A stretch of 10,017 nucleotides of DNA from Pseudomonadota bacterium (GTDB lineage Bacteria > Pseudomonadota > Gammaproteobacteria > Burkholderiales > SG8-39): assembly GCA_021825225.1 (NCBI GenBank), contig JAKAIH010000056.1, positions 1 through 10,017 of the forward strand, in the 5' to 3' direction. A program made the position numbers and the translations under genes. Numbering within the stretch: the first letter of the stretch is position 1; the number at the start of each line of letters is the position of its first letter. Of the stretch, positions 811 through 9,006 are shown in pieces. The notes beneath the pieces were generated by a model. That model was given only the letters and a program-made list of their open reading frames with translations, had not been told where the DNA came from and did not search any database.

Positions 811-1650
811 TTACGCCATCGCCCGCAGGCGGGCGATGCGCATCTCGGTCGCGGGGTGGGTGCTGAACAGATTCTGCATGCCTGAGCCTGAGAGCGGGTT
901 GATGATCATCATCTGCGCCGTCGCCGGATGCTCCTCGGCGGCAACCATGGGCAGGCCGTGGGCGTAGCGTTCCATTTTCGCGAGCGCATCGGCGAGCGCG
1001 TTCGGGTCGCCCGAGATCTCGGCGCCGCCGCGGTCGGCCTCGAATTCGCGTGCGCGTGAAATCGCCATTTGAATCAGCATCGCCGCGATCGGCGCCAGGA
1101 TCATCACGATCAGTCCGACGACAGGATTGGCGCGTTCGCCATCGCTGCGCCCGCCGAAGAGGAAGCCGAACTGGGCGATGGAAGAGATCGCTCCGGCCAC
1201 GGTGGCGGCTACGGTGGAAATCAGGATGTCGCGATGCTTCACATGCGTCAGTTCGTGCGCCATCACGCCGCGCAATTCGCGCGCCGTCAACAGCTGCAGG
1301 ATGCCGGTGGTCGCCGCGACTGCGGCATGCTCGGGGTTGCGTCCGGTGGCAAACGCATTGGGCTGCGCTTCGTCGATCAGGTACACGCGCGGCATGGGCA
1401 GCCCGGCGCGCTGCGCCAATTCCTGCACCAGGCCATAGAACTGCGGCGCGCTCGCCGCATCGACTTCATGCGCGTTATACATGCGCAGCACCATCGCGTC
1501 GGAGAACCAGTAGGCGAAAATATTCATCGCGCCGCCAAGCGCGAGCGCGAGCAGCATGCCGTTTGCGCCGCCGATCGCGGCGCCGACGACGCCGAACAGC
1601 GCCACGATGCCTGCCATCAGGATGGTGGTCTTAAGCCAGTTTCCCAGCAT
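811..1650 (-). CDS. htpX: Membrane zinc metalloprotease HtpX (M48B)
   Basis: HtpX is an inner-membrane zinc endopeptidase that degrades misfolded or damaged membrane proteins, with its active site in the cytoplasm. The 279-residue product has the usual family length and plan. Hydrophobic segments lie at about 8-28 and 31-49, the zinc motif HELTH at 132-136 (two His ligands and the catalytic Glu), two more hydrophobic segments at about 142-165 and 176-196, and EFEAD at 202-206, whose first Glu is the expected third zinc ligand. The family motif [15 protein letters not shown] is at 98-112. I prefer the ATG at 1650-1648: AGGA at 1662-1659 lies 8 nt upstream and the protein then begins MLGNWLKT as in relatives. 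A GTG at 1665-1663 would add five residues but would put the AGGA inside the gene. It starts 36 bp after fmt, probably in the same transcript. Its conserved place beside fmt and rsmB does not itself explain its role. Confidence 0.95.
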
Positions 1651-5645: not shown

Positions 5646-6104
5646 ATGTTCGACATACTCGTCTACCTGTTCGAAAACTACTACCACACCGACCTCTACC
5701 CCGATCAAGATGCGCTGGCGCGCAAACTCAGCGCCGCCGGCTTCGAGCACGAAGACATCAGCGAGGCGCTCGCCTGGCTGCAGGGGCTCACCGCCACCGA
5801 GACCAGCACGCTTCCCGATTCACTCGCGCAAAGCACGGCGTTTCGCGGCTATGCCGAAGTCGAGGCGGTCAAGCTCGGCGTCGAAGGGCGCGGTTTTCTC
5901 GCTTTTCTGGAGGGCGCCAAGGTGCTCACGCCGCTGGTGCGCGAGATCATCATCGAGCGCGCGATGGCACTCGCGGAAGACAGCGTGAGCATCGAGAAAC
6001 TGAAAGTGATCGTGCTGATGGTTTTGTGGAGCCAGCAGCATGCGATCGATTCGCTCATCCTGGAAGAACTGCTCTCCGATCGCGCGCAATTGCTAATGCA
6101 TTAG
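5646..6104 (+). CDS. smg: Smg family protein (DUF494), function unknown
   Basis: This 152-residue acidic, mostly helical cytoplasmic protein is a recognisable Smg/DUF494 member: it begins MFDILVYLFENYY, and the helical C-terminal part (EIIIERAMAL, LKVIVLMVLWSQ) is typical, as is the total length. It has no signal peptide, no convincing membrane segment and no catalytic motif. The family's biochemical function is not established; its link is positional, sitting next to dprA and a topoisomerase gene in many proteobacteria. The ATG at 5646 gives the family N-terminus. The ribosome-binding site is either the weak AGAAG directly before it or TAAGAGG 12 nt upstream. Probably co-transcribed with dprA. 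Confidence 0.92.
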   Translation: MFDILVYLFENYYHTDLYPDQDALARKLSAAGFEHEDISEALAWLQGLTATETSTLPDSLAQSTAFRGYAEVEAVKLGVEGRGFLAFLEGAKVLTPLVREIIIERAMALAEDSVSIEKLKVIVLMVLWSQQHAIDSLILEELLSDRAQLLMH

Positions 6105-6146
6105 GTTTGCTGGCGCAGATTAAGTCGCTGTTTCCCTGAACTTTGT

Positions 6147-6163
6147 CACGGCGCAGCGCCGTG
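6147..6163. terminator. Compact dyad after smg, possible terminator
   Basis: CACGGCGC and GCGCCGTG are perfect reverse complements around a single A. As RNA this folds as a 6-bp GC stem (CACGGC/GCCGTG) with loop GCAGC, 43 nt after the smg stop. It is followed by TCTCCTTGCTTC, pyrimidine-rich but without a proper T-run. A weak terminator separating smg from topB would fit, because a promoter-like sequence and a 259-bp gap follow. Confidence 0.4.
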
Positions 6164-6168
6164 TCTCC

Positions 6169-6198
6169 TTGCTTCGCCCTCCGGTTTGCACTTATCAT
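6169..6198 (+). promoter_or_regulatory. Candidate sigma-70 promoter for topB
   Basis: TTGCTT (6169-6174) and TATCAT (6193-6198; five of six bases match TATAAT) are 18 bp apart, just after the dyad at 6147-6163. Transcription would start near 6205 and give a leader of about 160 nt that includes the short topB-like reading frame at 6265-6354. The -35 is poor, so this is a suggestion from position and pattern only. Confidence 0.35.
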
Positions 6199-6264
6199 GC
6201 TGCCGCTTGCTGCACCGGGCAGATCAATATCGATTGAGGCTGCGCGCGCGGGTCCGACCACACC

Positions 6265-6354
6265 ATGACCAAAAAACTCATCATCGCCGAGAAGCCTTCC
6301 GTCGCGAACGATATTGCGCGCGACCGAGTTCACGAGCGCGCGCCCGCGCACTGA
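6265..6354 (+). pseudogene. Truncated duplicate of the topB 5' end (29 codons)
   Basis: An ATG here opens a 29-residue frame beginning MTKKLIIAEKPSVANDIAR, matching residues 1-19 of the topB product that starts exactly 99 bp downstream, except for T instead of A at position 2. After codon 19 the frame goes on with ten unrelated residues (DRVHERAPAH) and stops at TGA 6352-6354, 9 nt before the topB ATG. Over the 57 shared bases there are 8 differences, all transitions, and 7 are silent. That pattern means both copies evolved under protein-level constraint, so this is neither a recent copying slip nor an assembly duplication. It carries the EKPS part of the topoisomerase active site but nothing else, so it cannot be an enzyme. 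It may be a remnant of a replaced topB allele, or now a leader peptide for topB. No convincing ribosome-binding site lies upstream (ACCACACC before the ATG). Confidence 0.8.
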
Positions 6355-6363
6355 CCGGACCTT

Positions 6364-9006
6364 ATGGCCAAGAAGCTCATCATTGCCGAGAAGCCCTCCG
6401 TTGCGAATGACATTGCGCGCGCACTGGGCGGCTTCACCCGCCACGGCGATTATTTCGAGAGCGAGGAGTATGTGCTGTCCTCGGCGATCGGCCACCTGCT
6501 CGAACTGGTGGCCCCGGAAGGCGTCGAGGTCAAACGCGGCAAGTGGTCGTTCGCGAATCTGCCGGTCATCCCGCCGCACTTCGATCTGAAGCCGATCGAG
6601 CGCACCGAGGACCGGCTCAAGCTGCTGCTGAAGCTGTTGAAGCGCAAGGATGTCACCGGCGTCATCAACGCCTGCGACGCGGGACGCGAAGGCGAACTGA
6701 TATTCCGCTACATCATGCAGCACGCGGGCAACAAGAAACCGATCCAGCGGCTGTGGCTGCAATCGATGACGCAGGGCTCGATCCGCGACGGTTTCGAAGG
6801 TCTGCGCAGCGACAAGTCCATGCTGCCGCTCGCCGATGCCGCGGTGTGCCGTTCCGAATCCGACTGGCTGGTCGGCATCAACGGCACGCGCGCGATGACC
6901 GCGTTCAATTCCAAAGAGGGCGGCTTCTACAAGACCACCGTGGGCCGGGTGCAGACGCCCACGCTGGCGATCCTGGTCGAGCGCGAAGACCGCATCCGCA
7001 AGTTCCAGTCGCGCGACTACTGGGAAGTGCACGCCACTTTCGCCGCCGCCGCGGGGAGCTACAACGGGCGCTGGTTCGACGAGAAGTTCGCCAAGGCGGC
7101 GAAGGAAGAGGATGCCGAAGCCAGGCCCGAGCGCCTGTGGGATGCGGCGCGCGCCGAAGCGCTGCGCCGGAAGTGCGAGGGCAAGCCCGGCGTCGCCACC
7201 GAAGAAGCCAAGCCCACCACCCAGATCTCGCCGCTGCTGTTCGACCTGACCAGCCTGCAGCGCGAGGCCAACGGGCGCTTCGGCTTTTCCGCGCGCACCA
7301 CGCTGTCGCTGGCGCAGGCGCTGTACGAAAAGCACAAGGTGCTGACCTACCCGCGTACCGACGCGCGCGCGCTGCCGGAAGACTATCTGCCGACGGTCAA
7401 GTCGACCATGGAAATGCTGGCCGGCAAAGCCAAGGGCAAGGACAAGAGCGAGGGCGTCGCGGCCTATGCGCCGTTCGCGCGCCAGGTGCTCAAGGAAGGC
7501 TGGGTCAAGCCGAGCAAGCGCATCTTCGACAACAGCAAGATCTCCGATCACTTCGCCATCATTCCCACGCTGCAGGCGCCGGGCAATCTGTCCGATGCCG
7601 AAGCCAAGCTCTATGACATGGTGGTGAAGCGCTTCCTCGCGGTGTTCTTCCCCGCGGCCGAGTTCCTCGTCACTACGCGCATCACCCGCGTCGAGGGCGA
7701 ACCGTTCAGGAGCGAAGGCCGGGTAATGGTGAAGCCAGGCTGGCTCGCGATCTACGGCCGCGAGACGGAGAAGGACGATGCGCTGATGGTCGCGATCGCC
7801 GAAAGCGAGAAAGTCAGGACCACGGCGATCGACGTCAAGGCCAACCAGACCAAGCCGCCGGCGCGTTTCTCGGAAGCGACGCTGCTCTCGGCCATGGAGG
7901 GCGCGGGCAAGCTGGTCGAGGACGAGGAATTGCGCGAGGCCATGAGCGCGAAGGGCCTGGGCACGCCGGCGACGCGCGCCGCCGTCATCGAGGGTCTCAT
8001 CTTCGAGGACTATGTGCATCGCAACGGGCGCGAACTGGTGCCCACGCCCAAGGCGTTTTCGCTCATGTTCGCGCTCGGCCATTTCGGCATCACCGAGCTC
8101 ACTTCGCCCGAACTCACCGGCGACTGGGAGTTCAAGCTGAAGCAGATGGAGCGCGGCGAACTCGGCCGCTCCGAGTTCATGGACCACATCGTCGAATCCA
8201 CGCGCGAGCTGGTTTCCGCGATCAAGAAAGGCGACATTCCCGATACCGCATTTCTGACGCTCAAGGCGCCCTGCCCGAAATGCGGCGGCAAGGTGCAGGA
8301 GAACTATCGCAAGTTTCAGTGCCAGGCCTGCGACTTCAACATCTGGAAGGTGGTTTCCAGCCGCGAGTTTGCGCCGGAGGAGATCGAGGAGCTGATCGCC
8401 AAGCGCAGCGTCGGCCCGCTGCAGGGCTTCCGCAGCCGCATGGGCAAGCCCTTCGCCGCGGTGCTGCGGCTGTCGCCCGAATTCAAGGCGGAATTCGATT
8501 TCGGACAGTCCGGCGATGGCTCCGAGGAAGCACCCGATTTCAGCGGACTGGAACCGCTGGGGCCCTGCCCGAAGTGCAAGTCGCGCGTGTTCGAGCAGCC
8601 CATGGCCTATGTGTGCGAGAAAAGCCTGGGCCCGGAAAAGAGTTGCGACTTTCGCTCCGGCCGCATCATCCTGCAGCGGCCGATAGAGCGCGAGCAGATG
8701 CAAAAGCTGCTGGCGACCGGCAAGACCGACCTGCTGCACCGTTTCATCTCCAAGAAGGGCCGTCCGTTCTCGGCCTTCCTCGTGCGCGGCGCCGATGGCC
8801 GGGTCGGTTTCGAGTTCGCGCCGCGCGCGGCCAAGCCGGGCAAGGCCGCGCCCGCCGAAGCCGAGACCGCCGCGGGCAAGCCCGCTGCCAAGACGGCGGC
8901 GAAGGCCGCTGCGAAGCCTGCCGCGAAAACTGCGGCGAAGACTCCGGCCAAGCCCGCGGTCAAGGCGGTGAAGGCGGTCAAGGCGCGCAAGCGCGAGGCC
9001 GGCTAG
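6364..9006 (+). CDS. topB: DNA topoisomerase III (type IA) with Lys/Ala-rich tail
   Basis: Type IA topoisomerases cut one DNA strand through a 5'-phosphotyrosine and pass another through, relaxing or decatenating DNA. The 880-residue protein starts with the Toprim domain (IIAEKPSVA at 6-14; DAGREGE at 105-111, the DxG variant found in one bacterial TopB subclass). The central type IA domains follow, with SESDWLVGINGTRAMT at 164-179, GRVQTPT at 194-200, the catalytic tyrosine Y329 in LTYPRTDAR, ISDHFAIIPT at 393-402 and GLGTPATRA at 531-539. Two four-cysteine clusters follow: C637/C640/C653/C656 and C735/C738/C751/C761. The last 58 residues are a repetitive Lys/Ala/Pro tail resembling histone H1-like tails, probably a nonspecific DNA-binding extension. 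ATG at 6364 gives the family start; the ribosome-binding site is weak (GGA 4 nt upstream). Calling it topA would also be defensible by location, but the sequence subtype is TopB. Confidence 0.93.
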   Translation: MAKKLIIAEKPSVANDIARALGGFTRHGDYFESEEYVLSSAIGHLLELVAPEGVEVKRGKWSFANLPVIPPHFDLKPIERTEDRLKLLLKLLKRKDVTGVINACDAGREGELIFRYIMQHAGNKKPIQRLWLQSMTQGSIRDGFEGLRSDKSMLPLADAAVCRSESDWLVGINGTRAMTAFNSKEGGFYKTTVGRVQTPTLAILVEREDRIRKFQSRDYWEVHATFAAAAGSYNGRWFDEKFAKAAKEEDAEARPERLWDAARAEALRRKCEGKPGVATEEAKPTTQISPLLFDLTSLQREANGRFGFSARTTLSLAQALYEKHKVLTYPRTDARALPEDYLPTVKSTMEMLAGKAKGKDKSEGVAAYAPFARQVLKEGWVKPSKRIFDNSKISDHFAIIPTLQAPGNLSDAEAKLYDMVVKRFLAVFFPAAEFLVTTRITRVEGEPFRSEGRVMVKPGWLAIYGRETEKDDALMVAIAESEKVRTTAIDVKANQTKPPARFSEATLLSAMEGAGKLVEDEELREAMSAKGLGTPATRAAVIEGLIFEDYVHRNGRELVPTPKAFSLMFALGHFGITELTSPELTGDWEFKLKQMERGELGRSEFMDHIVESTRELVSAIKKGDIPDTAFLTLKAPCPKCGGKVQENYRKFQCQACDFNIWKVVSSREFAPEEIEELIAKRSVGPLQGFRSRMGKPFAAVLRLSPEFKAEFDFGQSGDGSEEAPDFSGLEPLGPCPKCKSRVFEQPMAYVCEKSLGPEKSCDFRSGRIILQRPIEREQMQKLLATGKTDLLHRFISKKGRPFSAFLVRGADGRVGFEFAPRAAKPGKAAPAEAETAAGKPAAKTAAKAAAKPAAKTAAKTPAKPAVKAVKAVKARKREAG
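8824..9003 (+). repeat. Low-complexity Lys/Ala/Pro repeat region at topB 3' end
   Basis: Codons for about residues 821-880 of TopB repeat short Ala-Ala-Lys and Pro-Ala-Lys units (for example KPAAKTAAKAAAKPAAKT), ending KAVKAVKARKREAG. The DNA is made of degenerate GCC/GCG/AAG repeats, a likely site of in-frame length change between strains. The codons keep synonymous variety (AAG/AAA, GCC/GCG/GCT), so it is not a perfect microsatellite. Confidence 0.75.

Follow-up and report, generated by a model that had tools for sequence, protein, structure and literature searches.

A tandem minisatellite made of the topB gene start, with copy number varying between species of uncultured betaproteobacteria

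Why does the beginning of topB, the gene for DNA topoisomerase III, occur twice at one locus, and what, if anything, does the additional copy do for the gene? The window (the whole 10,017-nt stretch of DNA that was analysed) belongs to a draft genome of 3.1 Mb in 544 contigs, which is 85% complete, and carries codons 1–19 of topB at the gene itself and once more in the gap behind the neighboring gene smg. We compared this gap among relatives of the source organism, and asked where the copy stands, how it arose and changed, and whether ribosomes may use it.

The repeated topB start in the window

The features of the locus are collected in Table 1. The topB product passes the NCBIfam model NF006032 with a score of 1422 bits (cut-off, 1058), and smg matches NF002897 with an E value of 4.6e-35 and 121 bits, under the model's cut-off of 191; smg precedes topB at all 13 loci of the genus in which topB was found. 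Among the direct-repeat families of the window, the topB-start repeat is the largest, with 58 nt at 86% identity (positions 6265 and 6364; spacing, 99 nt). Over codons 1–19, copy 1 and topB have 49 of 57 bases in common, and the eight differences, located at positions 4, 9, 12, 21, 33, 39, 45, and 48 of the alignment, are all transitions, seven being synonymous and one nonsynonymous (T2A). When the 300 nt upstream were dinucleotide-shuffled 1000 times, the top match reached 31/57, and the mean was 24.8.

Table 1. Features of the smg–topB region, in positions of the window
Feature	Positions	Strand	Basis or remark
smg (DUF494)	5646..6104	+	ORF list; 152 aa; upstream neighbor
Promoter-like conserved block, TTGCTT...TATCAT	6169..6198	+	comparison of congeners
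Leader ahead of copy 1	6220..6264	+	counterpart of topB's own leader in array-less congeners
topB-start copy 1 (codons 1–19, T2 form)	6265..6321	+	repeat search, alignment
Mini-ORF, 29 codons, MTKKLIIAEKPSVANDIARDRVHERAPAH, TGA at 6352–6354	6265..6354	+	translation
Linker, 42 nt; contains GC-rich inverted repeats and, 9 nt ahead of the next ATG, an in-frame TGA	6322..6363	+	
topB-start copy 2 = genuine topB start (A2 form)	6364..6420	+	ORF list, repeat search, alignment
topB, DNA topoisomerase III, 880 aa	6364..9006	+	NCBIfam NF006032

The original prediction, made from the window alone, had described the twofold codons 1–19 with exactly these eight transitions, seven silent and one T2A, and the recount agrees with it in every figure. 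Its reading of the copy 1 frame is likewise confirmed, the frame running for 29 codons to a TGA from which 9 nt lead to the ATG of topB. It had also suggested that the repeat may reach upstream of the ATG; this is weak inside the window (local P, 0.13; global P, 0.09) and is borne out in the relatives, where successive copies are separated by the recurring 42-nt linker, which therefore belongs to the repeat unit.

Copy number, ancestral start site, and turnover of the array

Fourteen genomes of the genus, one per species, were sampled, and topB was found in 13 of them; a run of N covers the site upstream of topB in G002/L015, which was left out, hence 12 readable congeners. The array is present in 10 of the 12, with 13 upstream copies overall. 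A single upstream copy occurs in seven genomes (the window, G001, G003, G005, G007, G008, and G010) and two copies in three (G004, G006, and G011), whereas G013/L005, the sister of the window, and G012/L007 have none. The unit measures 99 nt (57 nt of topB start plus the 42-nt linker) in 12 of the 13 upstream copies, and Tandem Repeats Finder (TRF) gave a period of 99 with 2.6 copies in L041; the exception is one copy of G006 with a linker shorter by 30 nt, in which the TGA plus 9 nt are still present. The ATG, the frame, and the TGA-N9-ATG layout are intact in all 13, and the linker reads in frame roughly as [D/G]R[I/V/L][H/Y]ERAPAR-TGA-nine nt. At G011/L010 the genuine topB start is CTG, standing behind upstream copies that bear ATG. 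The sequence ahead of the remaining copy of G007/L008 is itself linker-like, and G007 has therefore probably lost a first copy. As in a VNTR, the units stand head to tail and their number (0, 1, or 2 among the 12 congeners) differs between relatives; topB of these uncultured betaproteobacteria is preceded by a tandem minisatellite array with species-variable copy number.

Copy 1 of the window, and not the start that opens the gene, occupies the ancestral topB start, so that the extra DNA sits between copy 1 and the gene body, because the T2 form, the leader, and the spacing to TATCAT all match those of an array-less topB. T2 is the form of topB itself in array-less L005, and also in L007, and 35 of the 45 bases of the copy 1 leader (counted by eye) are equal to the topB leader of L005. 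The TATCAT motif begins 72 nt ahead of copy 1 in the window; in 11 of the 12 readable congeners, irrespective of the presence of an array, it precedes the first start by 62–74 nt, and the twelfth, G007/L008, has TATGAT 89 nt before its first remaining copy. The conserved block TTGCTT...TATCAT may be a promoter; a consensus promoter scan called none in 6080–6420. The two array-less species are nested within the genus tree (support is uneven, and the smg and topB trees partly disagree), which suggests loss, in line with contraction between copies.

As to the origin of the array, a tandem duplication, probably dating back to the ancestor of the genus, would have taken in the 57-nt topB start and the stretch ahead of it, now the 42-nt linker, and copies would later have been gained, lost, and homogenised via recombination between repeats. 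The plain tandem duplication that we infer is supported for L017, a locus outside the genus described below, and not for the genus, because the genus linker resembles the old leader weakly: across the eight genus cases, P falls no lower than 0.038, uncorrected, whether global (L009) or local (L012). Exchange between copies has left several traces. A single base of the 57 separates copy 2 of G004/L004 from the topB start of the same genome, and the upstream copy nearest to the gene in G006 shares with its own topB a change from N to T at codon 15, which is absent from the other 11 genomes. In G010/L013, copy 1 matches the genome's own topB start at every position from base 18 onward, with all seven differences before that (P, 1.2e-4, for a boundary picked after the fact). 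The sister G008 has the same topB start as G010, yet its copy shows differences in that stretch; the tract looks conversion-like, a sign of turnover. On average, copies are closer to their own topB start than to those of other genomes (9.4 vs 10.8 differences; P, 0.006).

A different origin had been put forward in the original prediction, in which copy 1 was a one-off, recent remnant of allele replacement: a related allele would have homologously replaced the resident topB, leaving the old 5' end behind in the lineage of the window. Copy 1 of the window indeed differs from the genuine start of L005 at three silent positions but from its own at eight, copy 2 of L010 shows five differences from the topB start of L006 and nine from its own, and the nearest congener shifts along topB, so that interspecies exchange is possible and could add copies. 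Against such a replacement, the array and a common linker are found in 10 of the 12 congeners, the topB start lies in no clear imported tract, and array-less L005 can equally be a product of contraction. We looked for an imported topB tract at the start of the gene in the window and discarded it: over 14 segments of smg and topB, the nearest relative of the window is L005 in eight and another congener in six, and the lead of L004 (0.060) over L005 (0.087) in the first 150 nt of the topB body is too slight to weigh. The one-off remnant is thus abandoned, and we regard allele replacement in the lineage of the window as improbable. An assembly artefact from mixed strains, which might be suspected since the window stems from a fragmented draft, is very unlikely, to the point of being negligible, because ten separate assemblies, classed as different species, show the same structure.

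Divergence of the copies and their possible translation

Pooled over genome pairs, pN/pS is lowest at the genuine topB start (0.07) and in the topB body (0.10), rises to 0.25 in the topB-derived part of the 13 upstream copies, and reaches 1.6–2.4 in the ten linker codons, which hold few silent sites. Among the 12 full-length upstream copies, 60% of the changes are synonymous, compared with a mean of 20% and a maximum of 36% under random placement. The topB-derived part of the copies thus diverges in a relaxed coding-like manner; together with the three silent differences between copy 1 and the topB of L005, these figures uphold the earlier claim that copy 1 had diverged as coding DNA. The silent:changing ratio is 7:1 for the copy of the window and, outside the start codon, 8:0 for copy 2 of G011/L010, and other copies look neutral (G005/L009, 7.5:12.5; G010/L013, 2:5; L010 copy 1, 1:3; G003/L011, 6.5:6.5). 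The ATG, the open frame, and the stop are jointly intact in 12/12 full-length copies and in 0 of 20000 random placements (each alone: ATG kept in all copies, 0.6%; stop, 2%; open frame, 11%), figures that overstate the case because the trials treat non-independent copies as independent.

In the linker, third codon positions are the slowest (divergence, 0.08) and second positions the fastest (0.30), and it is therefore not maintained as a peptide. Its mean divergence is 0.20, vs 0.25 and 0.33 at the four-fold sites of topB and smg, respectively, and the 9 nt following the TGA differ at 0.34 per site, yet the TGA is invariant. We conclude that the copies begin as pieces of a working gene and then drift, while the frame itself survives. 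A conserved peptide, as expected of a leader peptide, is seen neither in the linker, with its high pN/pS, nor in the N-terminal part, where the ratio is 0.25 and several copies look neutral.

The array, its variable copy number, its conserved spacing, its intact frames, and the signs of turnover are observed directly; on balance, though with no great confidence, we take this minisatellite of a gene start to consist of copies that are probably translated as mini-cistrons and would deliver ribosomes to topB. The route that we infer would run as follows. Transcription would begin near the conserved block and pass through the array, and ribosomes would initiate at copy 1, which retains the original leader and start position; initiation at that point is to be expected, since the array-less sister uses a very similar leader and start for its topB. 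The product would be a 29-residue peptide, the first 19 residues of which are the N-terminus of the topB product, and the ribosomes would terminate at the TGA, restart on the next copy, and finally reach topB. With 9 nt between the stop and the ATG that follows, termination–reinitiation is allowed; an alternative route to topB would be the unfolding of the GC-rich linker.

In a review, uORFs are considered as possibly serving solely to deliver a ribosome, with mycobacterial interspersed repetitive units (MIRUs) as a natural case, and coupling in Escherichia coli is described across a range of positive spacings, with exceptions (PMC12548453). According to another paper, coupling in six tested pairs falls steeply with distance until hardly any is left at about 20 nt, and overlaps greatly outnumber the other arrangements (PMC10666635); +9 nt is hence not a typical coupled spacing, and coupling across it is plausible but not assured. 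The original prediction had offered a leader peptide coupled to topB translation as its alternative. The architecture agrees with this (TGA-N9-ATG in 13/13 copies), and the linker pN/pS speaks against a functional peptide; the 29-codon frame with its tail, the conservation of which in many distant genera would have favored a functional leader, is conserved within the genus of the window only.

The main rival to translated mini-cistrons is a neutral minisatellite, made by slippage or unequal exchange of GC-rich repeats, whose mini-ORFs do nothing for topB and are open merely because the copies were fairly recently cut from a working gene. Such an array would be expected to vary in copy number and to be missing from some species, as it is from two here, and the unconstrained linker peptide, the several copies evolving in a neutral-like manner, and the existence of a young copy (L004 copy 2) are consistent with it. 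It accounts less readily for the retention of start, frame, and stop in all 13 copies, the most diverged included, for a TGA that does not change next to nine nucleotides that do, and for a linker that has diverged a little less than the four-fold sites of topB, and less than those of smg, although it is not refreshed from topB. We therefore hold the neutral account to be possible but unlikely. A regulatory leader, in which either the 29-residue peptide stalls the ribosome or GC stems (S1-linker and linker-S2) switch, so as to set the topB level by a signal, could draw on the slow third and fast second positions of the linker, which point to constraint at the nucleotide level, and on the Alifold prediction of pairing between the end of copy 1 and the linker, in which one base pair has changed on both sides (in the sisters L012 and L013). 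The peptide is, however, not conserved, and the covariation term is near zero. With a longer alignment, Alifold gave three pairs changed on both sides, two of which came from that same pair of sisters, and the linker hairpin by itself contained no such pair; five folded RNA stretches were no more stable than their shuffles (z-scores, −0.95 to 1.14), and a search of Rfam returned no family above threshold, the single match being far below threshold and on the other strand. A regulatory leader peptide or attenuator of this kind is highly improbable.

A further step beyond ribosome delivery, which we put forward as speculative and rather doubtful, would be that topB sets its own level of translation by duplicating its start, the copy number acting as an evolvable rheostat for topoisomerase III. 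Each mini-cistron would then catch ribosomes and pass a share to the next start, and the CTG of G011/L010 would look like the result of a relaxed demand for a good start codon, ribosomes being delivered by the mini-cistron ahead of it.

Relation to known systems and occurrence elsewhere

Tandem arrays of variable copy number are common, and MIRUs, a dispersed family present at many genomic loci (senX3-regX3 being an example), have a unit similar in size to that of topB. Start-codon repeats with coupled ORFs are already known in the form of MIRUs, the closest published idea, in which a short repeat at the start codon carries a small gene-coupled ORF (PMC12548453). The topB unit likewise lies at a start codon and contains a small ORF ending nearby (29 codons; +9 nt; 13/13 copies). 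MIRUs are described as apparently mobile and coupled with a spacing of −4 nt (PMC12548453), whereas the topB unit ends at +9 nt, is cut from the gene it precedes, and is found at one locus only; neither dispersal over the genome, in the 14 genus genomes, nor a stop/start overlap of −4 nt was seen. With minisatellites and VNTRs it shares the head-to-tail units, the copy number varying between relatives, and the signs of homogenisation; what sets it apart is that every unit includes the start codon and first 19 codons of its host gene, followed by a stop at a fixed place. With a short ORF that ends shortly ahead of the main start, the unit also recalls the coupled, ribosome-delivering uORFs treated in the review (PMC12548453); unlike the known ones, the uORF of topB, for which coupling is putative, copies the main gene's own start and is present in 0–2 copies depending on the species. 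A literature search that reached few subscription papers found neither a repeated topB start nor a published case of a repeat unit that derives from the start of its host gene, turns over at one locus in a genus, and arises again in another.

The congeners form a natural series of 0, 1, and 2 copies for measuring how the repetition of a translation start affects a conserved gene, and G011, with CTG behind ATG-bearing copies, is a natural test case. The array also shows how coupled upstream ORFs might be born from nothing beyond a gene's own 5' end, and explains an annotation trap, in which two or three starts are equally good and the last alone opens the real topB frame.

Outside the genus, 71 genomes of the family had a topB match, and 50 upstream regions were examined. 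A clear copy was present in one of the 50, G022/L017 (48/57 at −88), with a 21-codon frame ending in TAG. In L017 the linker and the leader of the locus match (local P, <0.001; global P, 0.002), and a plain tandem duplication therefore seems to have arisen independently in G022; two congeners of G022 that were examined showed no such copy. In a third genus, G067/L128 has matches of 33/57 at −94 and 27/57 at −193, again spaced by 99 nt, and 1 of 2000 shuffles reached 33; these may be relics of two decayed copies, which is only suggestive given the 50 family genomes examined. An order-wide screen covered 300 genomes, 159 of which had a match at E up to 1, with matches listed to about E 0.006; a second nearby start occurred in G000 and G022 only, among the matches listed.

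The possibility that the linker is a mobile or dispersed element was rejected, its full-length matches being at topB loci and the remaining ones shorter, and in the 14 genus genomes no further full copy of the linker together with the start was reported away from topB. Four short linker matches that were inspected (L160–L163) fall in coding-like DNA unrelated to topB. Two of the four, in G009 and G002 (E, 8e-4), lie within a tryptophan-synthase-beta-like ORF, so named by the look of its translation.

A control over 791 ORFs of at least 150 codons (spurious ORFs included) in 399 kb from four relatives placed topB in both of the best two positions (G010, 50/57; G022, 48/57), followed by matches of 42, 40, and 36; the topB of G011 was missed because its start is CTG. 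By eye, the matches of 42 and 40 resemble intergenic repeats under doubtful ORFs, and that of 36 resembles a repeat inside a protein.

Start codon of topB in a congener with two upstream copies

The real start of topB (DNA topoisomerase III) in L010, the locus of congener G011 that carries two upstream copies of topB codons 1–19, is CTG, the other readable congeners having ATG at this position; both upstream copies of L010 retain ATG. Between the TGA that closes the upstream mini-ORF and the IAEKPS motif of the product, which has a catalytic role, L010 contains no in-frame ATG, GTG, or TTG. In another congener, G002, a run of 100 consecutive N begins one base past topB codons 1–19, which would fit an assembly break at the array.

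Coordinates of features at and around topB
Feature	Locus position	Genome position	Strand
Tandem duplication of the topB start, with 21-codon frame	L017 2101-2188	G022:C19:24790-24877	minus
Real topB start, CTG	L010 1501	G011:C132:14460	
N run	L015 (G002) 1404-1503		
Imperfect 24-nt repeats, topB C-terminal tail	window 8873-8968		
24-nt repeat	L041 4262-4308		

Copies and possible copies of the topB start in other genera

The frame found in G022, a genome of another genus, comprises 21 codons (MADKLIIAEPPCVANDIAHEA) and ends with TAG, 22 nt ahead of topB, and is apparently a tandem duplication of the topB start of independent origin. In a third genus of the same family, two stretches of L128 weakly resembling the topB start lie 94 and 193 nt upstream of it, with a spacing of exactly 99 nt, and could be decayed copies.

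Termini of the topB product and related public records

On visual inspection, the topB product of genus g6 (L016, L120, L121, L123, and L127) seems to be extended at its N terminus by a Lys/Ala/Pro-rich stretch of ~40–60 codons preceding the conserved LIIAEKPS start. The C-terminal tail encoded in the window is Lys/Ala-rich and contains imperfect 24-nt repeats, with a similar unit found in L041.

Three metagenome records (L056, L082, and L090) are titled Bordetella parapertussis or Verrucomicrobia, names that may be wrong; their topB shows 81–83% identity to that of the window across ~200 residues, on par with the uncultured betaproteobacteria neighbouring them in the match list.
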